64,000 nucleotides of DNA from an uncultured Lactobacillus sp. (lineage in GTDB: Bacteria; Bacillota; Bacilli; Lactobacillales; Lactobacillaceae): the NCBI RefSeq assembly GCF_910589175.1, contig NZ_CAJURR010000009.1, positions 1-64,000 of the forward strand. Direction: 5' to 3'. The notes under the pieces were generated by a model. That model did not search any database. It was not told where the DNA came from and was given only the letters and a program-made list of their open reading frames with translations. The translations under genes and the position numbers were made by a program. This document shows positions 61,408 through 64,000 of the stretch, piece by piece. Numbering within the stretch: the first letter of the stretch is position 1; every line of letters starts with the position of its first letter.

Positions 61408-62787
61408 TTGACAAAATTTACTAAAAACAAACAAGAAAAAAATATTATCATCACTATTAAACGCTTGGGTATTAATGGTGAAGGTATTGGATACTATAAA
61501 AAGAAAATTATTTTTATTCCGGGTGCGCTTCCGAATGAGGTAGTTGTTGCTAAGATCGTTGATCGCCATCCACACTATTTGGAAGGTGAATTAGTAAGAA
61601 TTAAAGAAAAATCTCCTGACAGAGTTACCTTTCCTAAAGGAGTTGATCCTGCAGTTGGTGGGCTAGAACTCGCACATCTTTCTTATCCAAAACAACTTGA
61701 ATTTAAACAGCATCTAATTCTAGAATCGCTTAGAAAATATCATCCAAGAGACTATATTAAATATAAAGTTAAAAAGACAATTCCTGCACCAAACGCTTGG
61801 AATTATCGAAATAAAGCTCAATATCAAATTGAATTTAATAAGGGGAAGAGTAAACTTGGTCTCTATGCTCCTAATTCCCGTCGTCTTATTGACCTGCCTG
61901 ATATGCCCACTCAAACAAAAGAGACTCAAAAAGTAGAACGTGAAATTAAGAAACTAATCGATAAACTTCACATCCGAATTGCCGACTTTAGACGTCATAC
62001 CGATGGAATTAAAACCATTGCCGTTCGTCAAAGCAATGCTACTGGTGAAATTCAGGTAACTTTAATTACAATTGATAAAAAAATTAAAGATCTCAAGTTA
62101 CTTGCTAGTCATATTATGAAACTTCCGAATGTAGTTTCCGTTTTCCAAAATGAAACTCAATGGCAAAATCCTCAAGTTTGGGGCAATAAAACTATTAAAT
62201 TGTTCGGAAAGTCACATATTACAGAAGAAATACTAGGTAAAAAATTTAAGCTTTCACCACGCGCATTTTTCCAGCTTAACCCTGAACAAACTACTACTCT
62301 TTACTCAGAAGCCCTTAAATATCTTGACTTAACTCCCGATCAAACTTTAATCGATGCTTATGCGGGCGTTGGTACTTTGGGAATCTTAGCTAGCGATCAA
62401 GTAAGACAGGTTATTGGAATTGAATCCATTCCTGAAGCCGTAATCGATGCTCAAGAAAACTGCCGCTTAAATCATGTAAGAAATGCGGAATATATTCAAG
62501 GAAATGTGGAAAAATTACTTCCAGAACTAAAAAATCAAGGTGTTCCAATTAATGCATTAATCGTCGACCCACCACGTACGGGATTAAGCAAAAAGTTAAT
62601 TAAAACTCTACTTGAAGTAAAACCTGAAACCTTTGTTTACGTTTCTTGCAATCCTGCTACTCTGGCAAAGGATTTAGTTCTTCTAAGTGAAGCTTATGAT
62701 GTTAGAGTTATTCAACCAGTTGATATGATGCCGCAAACACCACGTTGGGAAGGCGTTACTAAACTAGTTTTAAGAAAAAATAAGTAA
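61408..62787 (+). CDS. rlmCD: 23S rRNA (uracil-5-)-methyltransferase, RlmCD/TrmA-like
   Basis: 459 aa. TTG start at 61408, seven bases after GAGGG. An N-terminal TRAM domain (about 12-70), SAM motif DAYAGVGTLGILASDQ near 316, and the catalytic cysteine in VYVSCNPATLAKDLVLL near 414. The usual Fe-S cysteines near residues 75-90 are absent; the place reads KGVDPAVGGLELAHLSYPKQ. In Gram-positives this family methylates U747 and U1939; the target here is inferred. Followed by a terminator. Confidence 0.9.
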   Translation: MTKFTKNKQEKNIIITIKRLGINGEGIGYYKKKIIFIPGALPNEVVVAKIVDRHPHYLEGELVRIKEKSPDRVTFPKGVDPAVGGLELAHLSYPKQLEFKQHLILESLRKYHPRDYIKYKVKKTIPAPNAWNYRNKAQYQIEFNKGKSKLGLYAPNSRRLIDLPDMPTQTKETQKVEREIKKLIDKLHIRIADFRRHTDGIKTIAVRQSNATGEIQVTLITIDKKIKDLKLLASHIMKLPNVVSVFQNETQWQNPQVWGNKTIKLFGKSHITEEILGKKFKLSPRAFFQLNPEQTTTLYSEALKYLDLTPDQTLIDAYAGVGTLGILASDQVRQVIGIESIPEAVIDAQENCRLNHVRNAEYIQGNVEKLLPELKNQGVPINALIVDPPRTGLSKKLIKTLLEVKPETFVYVSCNPATLAKDLVLLSEAYDVRVIQPVDMMPQTPRWEGVTKLVLRKNK

Positions 62788-62798
62788 TTATATTAATT

Positions 62799-62827
62799 TA
62801 AGCAGTCGATTTGACTGCTTTTTTTGT
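62799..62827 (+). terminator. Terminator of the rlmCD-like gene
   Basis: AAGCAGTC and GACTGCTT arms around GATTT, followed by a T-run. Confidence 0.93.
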
Positions 62828-62833
62828 GCTTAT

Positions 62834-62871
62834 AAAAAAGGTTGTAGACTGCCTGGTCTACAACCTTTTTT
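62834..62871. terminator. Bidirectional terminator closing the candidate small RNA
   Basis: GGTTGTAGAC and GTCTACAACC form a 10-bp perfect stem around TGCCTG, flanked by six A and six T. On the minus strand it ends the proposed RNA; on the plus strand it is a second stop behind rlmCD. Confidence 0.93.
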
Positions 62872-63062
62872 CAAGTGGATGAGGTAAATACTATCTAGCG
62901 CCATAACGTCAGTATCTGGGTTTGATATTATGACTTGATCAACATCACTTGTTTGCATCTGTATTGAATAACGACTATTTGATCTTACTAAGAGAATCTT
63001 GTCTTTAAAACACTACAATCTGGAGATAAAAACTATTTACAATATTATTCTACCTCTCCACA
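62835..63062 (-). ncRNA. Candidate structured small RNA, 6S-like outline
   Basis: No convincing protein fills the 310 nt between rlmCD and mvaS. Read on the minus strand there is a promoter, then about 190 nt, then a strong terminator. The two ends of the body (63046-63061 and 62875-62890) pair over 15 bp as GUGGA/UCCAC, GAGGUA/UACCUC and AAUA/UAUU with two single-base bulges. That closing stem, and a body of 187 nt, fit the outline of 6S RNA, but I could not build the full central bubble and rod. The identity is therefore open; the existence of an RNA gene is better supported than its name. Confidence 0.6.
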
Positions 63063-63068
63063 CATCTT

Positions 63069-63096
63069 ATTATAACAACTATGTAAGCGAATACAA
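63069..63096 (-). promoter_or_regulatory. Promoter of the candidate small RNA
   Basis: Minus strand TTGTAT (63091-63096), 16-nt spacer, TATAAT (63069-63074) preceded by TG one base away (extended -10). It starts right after the mvaS stop codon and should give a start near 63062, at the first base of the pairing arm. Confidence 0.7.
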
Positions 63097-63097
63097 G

Positions 63098-64000
63098 TTA
63101 TTTAACTTGGTATTGTCGGATATCATTATGAATACCAGCAAAATAATATCTACCTTTTTCTTCATCACTTGTAAGTTCAACATTATTTTCTGGATCTTCC
63201 AAGCCTGCAGAAAAGATTTCTTCATATTCAGCAACACTAAGTTTGCTTCGATTATCTAATAAAGCTTTATCCCCAACCTTATCAAGTTGTTTTTCATAAC
63301 CTTCAACTACATTTGCGGAATAAAATTCAGCCATTGCACCTGAACCATAAGAAAATAGACCGACTAAGTCTCCAGCTTTTAACTTTCCATTTTCAAGTAA
63401 ACTAAGGAGACTCAAGTATAACGATCCGGTGTAAATATTACCTACATTTGCATTCAATTCTTTAGCTGCAGTAAAGCTGTCCATTAACCGGGCATTTGTT
63501 TCTTCATCCGTTCCCTCAACAGCTAATCTATTTGCCTTTAATCCCATCTTAGTAAAAGGTAAGTGGTAGACAATAGCAGCAAAATCTTTTGTTTCAAGAT
63601 TCTTTTGTTCTTTGTAAGCAGAAAAAGTATGTTTGAAAAAGTCTAAGTAAACCTGGGTAGAATACTTTCCATCTACCTTGGCTGTTTTAGAATAGTTAGG
63701 ACGCCAGAAATCATTGATATCCTCACTATAAGCACTATGGCCTTCATTTAATTCTAAAATTCTTGGATTACTGGAAATTAATAAACTAACACTTCCAGCT
63801 CCTTGAGTAACTTCACCAGCAGTATTAACCCCATAGCGAGCAATATCACTGCCGATAATAATAGCAGTTTGATCAGGATGAAGTCGTACAAAATCTTGGG
63901 CAATCATCAAGCCAGCAGTTAAGCCAAAACATGCTTCCTTAACTTCAAAAGCTCTCACAGTAGGATCTAACCCTAATGCCGATTTTACAAATAAAGAACC
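63098..64000 (-). CDS. mvaS: Hydroxymethylglutaryl-CoA synthase (5' part cut by window edge)
   Basis: The frame runs to the right edge at 64000 without a start, giving the C-terminal 300 aa of an enzyme usually near 385 aa. The catalytic cysteine lies in FEVKEACFGLTAGLM (codon about 63929-63931). It condenses acetyl-CoA with acetoacetyl-CoA in the mevalonate pathway that lactobacilli use for isoprenoids. A GTG at 63958 is internal, not the start. No terminator is seen between its stop and the small RNA promoter. Confidence 0.95.
   Translation of the reverse strand, partial: GSLFVKSALGLDPTVRAFEVKEACFGLTAGLMIAQDFVRLHPDQTAIIIGSDIARYGVNTAGEVTQGAGSVSLLISSNPRILELNEGHSAYSEDINDFWRPNYSKTAKVDGKYSTQVYLDFFKHTFSAYKEQKNLETKDFAAIVYHLPFTKMGLKANRLAVEGTDEETNARLMDSFTAAKELNANVGNIYTGSLYLSLLSLLENGKLKAGDLVGLFSYGSGAMAEFYSANVVEGYEKQLDKVGDKALLDNRSKLSVAEYEEIFSAGLEDPENNVELTSDEEKGRYYFAGIHNDIRQYQVK

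Follow-up and report, generated by a model that had tools for sequence, protein, structure and literature searches.

A candidate catabolite-repressed, structured RNA gene adjoining rlmD in Lactobacillus

The gap between mvaS and rlmD in a 64,000-nt stretch of DNA from an uncultured Lactobacillus (the window, i.e. the whole stretch analysed) is, as judged from its sequence, occupied by an independent RNA gene with its own promoter and terminator and with a structure that is held by compensatory changes. We consider it fairly probable that the product is a stand-alone, structured and catabolite-repressed regulatory RNA of Lactobacillus, which is apparently non-coding and would act in trans. Comparison of related loci establishes the orthology on the rlmD side, the compensated closing stem (P1) and inner hairpin (P4), the conservation of the motif UUUUAUCUCC, the spacing of promoter and cre-like box, and the terminator. 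In addition, the RNA probably belongs to a larger, so far undescribed family of Lactobacillaceae RNAs.

The RNA gene between mvaS and rlmD

The gap comprises 310 nt, as had been noted in a preliminary description of this DNA. The mvaS gene (63098-64000, minus strand) is truncated at the edge of the window, has TIGR01835 and PF08540 as its best families, and its stop codon ends at 63098; rlmD (61408-62787, plus strand; TIGR00479) has its stop at 62787. The RNA gene (62834..63062) is located on the minus strand and has a predicted transcript of about 228 nt, whose start was derived from the -10 box and whose end was placed at the T-run. Direct reading of the letters confirmed both signals given in the preliminary description. 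The promoter consists of a weak -35 hexamer TTGTAT (63091..63096, minus strand), which agrees with the consensus at three of six positions, a spacer of 16 nt and an extended (TG) -10 hexamer TATAAT (63069..63074, minus strand), both hexamers being aligned across 25 sequences. The intrinsic terminator (62834..62865, minus strand) is formed by a 10-bp stem (62865-62856 with 62849-62840), a loop of 6 nt and T6 at 62839-62834, and nine of its pairs were recovered in the fold of a stretch ending one base short. A scan for consensus promoters and terminators listed neither signal, the promoter because of its poor -35 hexamer and the terminator probably because A6/T6 lengthens its stem. As the terminator is nearly symmetric, it possibly acts in both directions. 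A plus-strand terminator behind rlmD (62800-62820) faces it, so that the two together span 62800-62865 of the window.

Promoter, closing stem and terminator follow each other in the correct order on the minus strand, and the proposal of an RNA gene outside Rfam with its own promoter and terminator is upheld. A 42-codon open reading frame (62958-62830) also starts inside the RNA, which might suggest a short mRNA for a small peptide. This frame extends through the terminator, its start codon is missing at that place in three copies (L010-L012) and insertions and deletions, as judged by eye, do not occur in threes, all of which makes the peptide reading scarcely credible.

Distribution, gene neighbours and the cre-like box

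A DNA search with the gap matched 25 of 75 genomes of the genus, and a strict pattern made from the aligned copies was found in 34 of 75, with one match each and none in the reversed control. For a wider search a sequence-only model of the promoter and the 5' end (R1) was made from the alignment of 25 sequences. It matches 59 of the 75 genomes at E<=1e-3, a number that includes seven weak matches which were not read (G040, G041, G049, G052, G056, G057 and G065). Fourteen R1 matches, largely weak ones, were retrieved and read, and the 3' end of rlmD is present in 13 of them, the exception being L240. Altogether rlmD lies in the stretch at 50 of 53 loci (51 of the genus and two of a neighbouring genus), many of the counted copies being close relatives. 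Where flanks of about 1.5 kb were available, mvaS was found in 30 of 39 loci; an alpha/beta hydrolase gene instead of mvaS lies directly upstream in 22 of the 39, with mvaS beyond it in 13.

These neighbours bear on whether the RNA is merely the 3' UTR of mvaS, cut from its mRNA. The preliminary description had treated release from the mvaS 3' region as an equal option, and it is true that no terminator separates mvaS from the RNA and that the -35 hexamer begins one base past the mvaS stop codon. However, promoter and cre-like box are kept where the hydrolase gene is directly upstream (22/39 loci), and they are also kept in other genera without a nearby mvaS; at five other-genus loci the stretch contains neither mvaS nor rlmD and the promoter is present. 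The two options are thus not equal and the 3' UTR reading is quite improbable, whereas read-through from mvaS into the RNA is possible.

In 84,980 species genomes, named carriers include L. johnsonii, L. taiwanensis, L. hominis, L. delbrueckii, L. jensenii, L. acetotolerans and L. kalixensis. The pattern scan of these genomes gave 53 stretches, 28 of which fall outside Lactobacillus; among the matches listed, these resemble coding sequence by eye, and none of the 28 passes a stricter pattern that demands GTGG just upstream. One record titled Faecalicatena absiana (L134; JAEDAG010000001.1, 5277-5315) carries the Lactobacillus RNA with a core identical to that of G002 (L023), and it looks like a wrong name or a mixed record.

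The -35 hexamer is overlapped by a cre-like CcpA site, TGTATTCGCTTACA (63082..63095), with one mismatch to what we take to be the cre consensus. Scored in the same way, the boxes at this place have no mismatch in five of 48 copies, at most one in 34 and at most two in 46, where mononucleotide shuffles lead to an expectation of 0.10 copies with at most one mismatch; 28 of the 48 copies were obtained with a pattern without the promoter and 20 via R1, which includes it, and many of the 48 are close relatives. The distance of the box over the -35 hexamer is nearly fixed among the copies. The criterion for a CcpA-repressed gene is a cre that overlaps the promoter, and the predicted box of the RNA gene has this position. 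Its left half is damaged in the window (TGTATT) and weakened throughout the window's clade. Two short orthologues of 182-185 nt, L171 (G039) and L172 (G044), have three mismatches and no recognisable cre, and catabolite control may therefore have been lost in their lineages.

Structure, conserved stretch and forms in other genera

In the fold of 62841-63064 the molecule is closed by the pairing of two arms, as had been proposed. The 5' strand of P1, GTGGAGAGGTAG (63061-63050, minus strand), pairs with the 3' strand, TTACCTCATCCAC (62887-62875, minus strand), and the helix continues inward. This fold has an MFE of -52 kcal/mol with z = -2.65 (2 of 200 shuffles equally low); without the terminator z is just -1.94 (7 of 200), so that fold energy alone is modest evidence and the comparison has to decide.

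Compensatory changes in the arms, which the preliminary description had suggested looking for, are present. In total 27 distinct strand pairs from the genus and its neighbour genus were compared, excluding L169 together with the copies sharing its strands as well as L015, which was omitted because its stem has a 3-nt bulge. The strands were positioned by hand, which favours the stem, and a script located them in their loci; there is little freedom in this placement, as the 3' strand lies ahead of the terminator. Ten of 13 pairs are changed on both sides (maximum of 1000 shuffles: 8), 87.1% of cells are paired (77.4% in shuffles) and 29 cells are changed on both sides (shuffle maximum 18), each of these three values exceeding all 1000 shuffles. 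The number of further pair types is unremarkable, being reached by 15 of 1000 shuffles. Examples of the exchanged strands are AATTAGAGGGGAGC with GCGTTCCCCTCTAATT in L236, AGAGAGGAAGA with TCTTCCTCTCT in L233 and GTGAA-GAGAAA with TTTCTCATTCAC in L240. An automatic duplex search that was not restricted to the stretch before the terminator picked spurious partners in ten loci (e.g. L021, L071 and L234). In all 37 folded sequences P1 is predicted above 0.5.

The inner hairpin P4, CATAATATCA...TGACGTTATG (62902..62932, minus strand), was taken from the window's own fold together with the inner six pairs of P1, and both were counted in the 12 sequences of the short clade. Here 94.4% of cells are paired, and six pairs show two-sided changes, all of them within P4 (six of its nine pairs), the inner P1 pairs being nearly invariant in this clade. 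Paired cells, two-sided changes and covariation score were reached by none of 500 shuffles and the pair types, which are unremarkable, by 280 of 500; shifting the partner by one to three columns reduced pairing to 35-52%. By eye, P1 also seemed able to alternate with a 5' hairpin (GAGGUAGAAA with UUUUUAUCUC), but this switch was rejected, its mean probability being 0.01 over the 37 sequences.

Measured to the end of P1, the RNAs of the genus are between 98 and 313 nt long, L233 (G048), L236 (G047), L238 (G055) and L239 (G051) being minimal forms with about 100 nt. CCCGAACAAGTGAATGT, for which no partner was found, is almost constant in the 11 long forms of one group, e.g. L136, as is AACAAGTGATGTT in most short forms.

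The motif UUUUAUCUCC is widely kept among the copies of the genus. In the window the conserved stretch TTTTTATCTCCAGA (63019..63032, minus strand) is predicted to be mostly single-stranded (unpaired 0.80). It is constant in the alignment of 25 sequences, which is a circular result since the search pattern contained it. In the 14 copies fetched through R1, TTTTATCTCC is exact in seven, has one change in four and two changes in two (L238 and L239) and is absent in one (L240), where it has to be considered that R1 contains promoter and motif, the latter less strictly than the pattern does, so that copies found through it carry both partly by construction. In 29 of the 37 folded sequences the motif is less paired than the interior of the RNA (mean 0.61 vs 0.45), and in eight its pairing is not below average; in L237 the script measured a different ATCTC. 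The motif is exact in L233 and L236, where the adjoining P1 sequence has wholly changed.

Possible targets were sought with TGGAGATAAAA, which has 57 exact matches in 12 genomes. In 11 of these genomes one match is the RNA gene itself (the exception is G039, whose copy differs), which leaves 46 others, and in three genomes the RNA gene is the sole match. Thirty loci were fetched, eight of which proved to be the RNA gene (including L256 and L257). Among the 22 foreign loci examined of 46, a gene is shared by just one pair of close relatives and no recurrent mRNA has the 11-nt complement at its start codon, and a single long antisense target was rejected on these grounds.

In the whole family R1 matches 219 of 397 genomes at E<=0.01, and these matches probably comprise true relatives as well as ordinary cre promoters. 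Two loci of one neighbouring genus, L168 and L170, are clear orthologues with the same inner motifs; mvaS lies beside both and rlmD also beside L170. From further genera 40 loci were fetched, of which 34 could be scored (five had no recognised start and one no terminator). In 25 of the 34 a purine-rich 5' end pairs just before the terminator in a way that at most 2% of control 16-mers match, and these percentages are optimistic, since the best of up to four terminators was taken and there were just 17 to 82 control 16-mers per locus. L180 and L227 pass this mark with doubtful helices; nine loci miss it, including L178, where the terminator was overlooked though its stem exists. The pairs formed by the 5' end and the stretch before the terminator differ by genus, namely GTGGAAGGAA/TTCCTTCC, TGGAAGAGAT/GTCTCTTCCA and GAGGAAAGG/CCTTTCCTC, and in one genus an RNA of about 250-300 nt has a conserved interior that is peculiar to this genus. 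Read by eye, L173-L177 and 12 other-genus loci did not reveal the Lactobacillus motif, with the exceptions L168 and L170. RNAs with the same frame in other Lactobacillaceae genera, about 100 to 800 nt long apart from one of about 950, are probable homologues. The loci L175 and L176, from two genomes of one genus, share a conserved long RNA behind rpiA, estimated by eye at about 650 nt; a RAGATH-18 match is also present in L176 (2413-2478).

Proposed role and comparison with known RNAs

A scan with all Rfam families, as had been recommended, was run, and no family of Rfam 15 exceeds its gathering cut-off in the whole window. The same holds for the RNA itself in the 44 related loci that were scanned, where the matches above cut-off all lie outside the RNA (tRNAs, two in L177 and one in L186, a T-box in L212 and the RAGATH-18 in L176). 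Sub-threshold matches touch the 3' end of the RNA in L217 (27.6 bits against a cut-off of 174.8) and L218 (39.3 against 60), and in L012 a further one (36.9 against 48) adjoins the RNA on the opposite strand. In the literature, no description of the RNA was found in titles and beginnings of abstracts among the matches listed; the transcript may be listed unnamed in supplementary RNA-seq tables.

The preliminary description had also noted a fit to 6S RNA, next to the possibility of another conserved RNA class, and the 6S identity is not supported. The RNA resembles the 6S RNAs of lactic acid bacteria (RF00013; RF01710) in having about 200 nt in the window's clade, a closing stem, an open region on the 5' side and its own promoter and terminator, and over a third of the 6S genes of these bacteria are reported to have a cre as well (PMC8414754, in the excerpts used here). 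It differs from them in locus, in interior (the long forms appear to have several hairpins in place of a rod) and in the lack of a model match, and both RNAs occur in the same genomes. In detail, neither RF00013 nor RF01710 matches the gap at E<=10, and the 6S models did not match 12 related loci at E<=1. RF00013 alone is no test, because it matches none of the 75 genomes of the genus and therefore misses the genus's own 6S RNA too. The excerpts of PMC8414754 place the 6S locus of lactic acid bacteria between rarA and usp and report one 6S copy. As RF01710 (Lacto-usp) is flanked by rarA and usp in all 22 genomes tested, the protein families of its two neighbours being confirmed in G001, we infer from this locus that it is the 6S RNA of the genus, whereas the RNA described here adjoins rlmD (50/53 loci). 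An identity of this RNA with 6S RNA, or with a second 6S paralogue mimicking an open promoter, is thus very improbable.

CcpA is established as a repressor under good sugar supply. In the reading that we prefer, CcpA would bind the cre-like box over the -35 hexamer and repress transcription while a preferred sugar is available, so that the RNA would accumulate once sugar runs low. P1 would join the two ends of the RNA immediately ahead of the terminator, exposing UUUUAUCUCC in the adjoining open region. From there the motif would act in trans; it would most likely serve as a short seed that pairs with Shine-Dalgarno sequences of the GGAGA type in several mRNAs, or else as a protein site. The pairing of UCUCC with GGAGA is our simplest guess, and this trans step is the least certain one.

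The protein site leads to a different reading, in which P1 and UUUUAUCUCC form a scaffold or decoy for RNA polymerase or a cold-shock or KH-type RNA-binding protein and the RNA functions in an RNP instead of pairing with mRNAs. The exact motif next to a fully changed P1 in L233 and L236 suits this reading, as does a length that varies within the genus as in RNAs with a small protein-binding core, and the lack of a recurrent long complement among the 22 foreign loci examined of 46 leaves room for an RNP. The protein partner is, however, only hypothetical, the motif is also suited to Shine-Dalgarno pairing, and it was not noticed in the other-genus forms that were read, save L168 and L170. We regard the scaffold or decoy as possible but rather unlikely.

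Returning to the trans-acting regulatory RNA, we tentatively suggest, with less confidence than for Lactobacillus itself, that it represents a family-wide Lactobacillaceae class as basic as 6S RNA. Its fixed frame would consist of the cre over the promoter, the purine-rich 5' end and the closing stem before the terminator, around an interior that may reach from about 100 nt up to several hundred. A core specific to each genus (UUUUAUCUCC in Lactobacillus) would be the active part and would couple carbon catabolite control broadly to translation or transcription. Few regulatory RNAs have been studied so far in the lactobacilli, which are used in food and as probiotics. A conserved and apparently catabolite-controlled RNA would offer a handle on their reprogramming when sugar is exhausted, and it suggests that lactic acid bacteria have a family of regulatory RNAs that is missing from the catalogues. 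One frame with interiors of very different size, down to the forms of about 100 nt in L233, L236, L238 and L239, constitutes a natural series for the role of the minimal core.

Among known systems, the proposed RNA is also comparable to the CcpA-linked sRNAs of other Firmicutes such as RsaI of Staphylococcus, which are likewise trans-acting RNAs under catabolite control. We know of no sequence shared between them, and in contrast to these sRNAs the RNA shows no Rfam family over cut-off. With OLE, ROOL and raiA/ModT it has in common that these are structured stand-alone RNAs of Bacillota. We take ROOL to be the 520-nt RNA of L. salivarius. The excerpts of PMC5643018 used here describe that RNA as abundant and located on a megaplasmid, which sets it apart from the RNA described here. 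OLE, ROOL and raiA/ModT also differ from it in that none of their Rfam models matches at the RNA. Finally, its length varies strongly, unlike that of OLE, ROOL and raiA/ModT.
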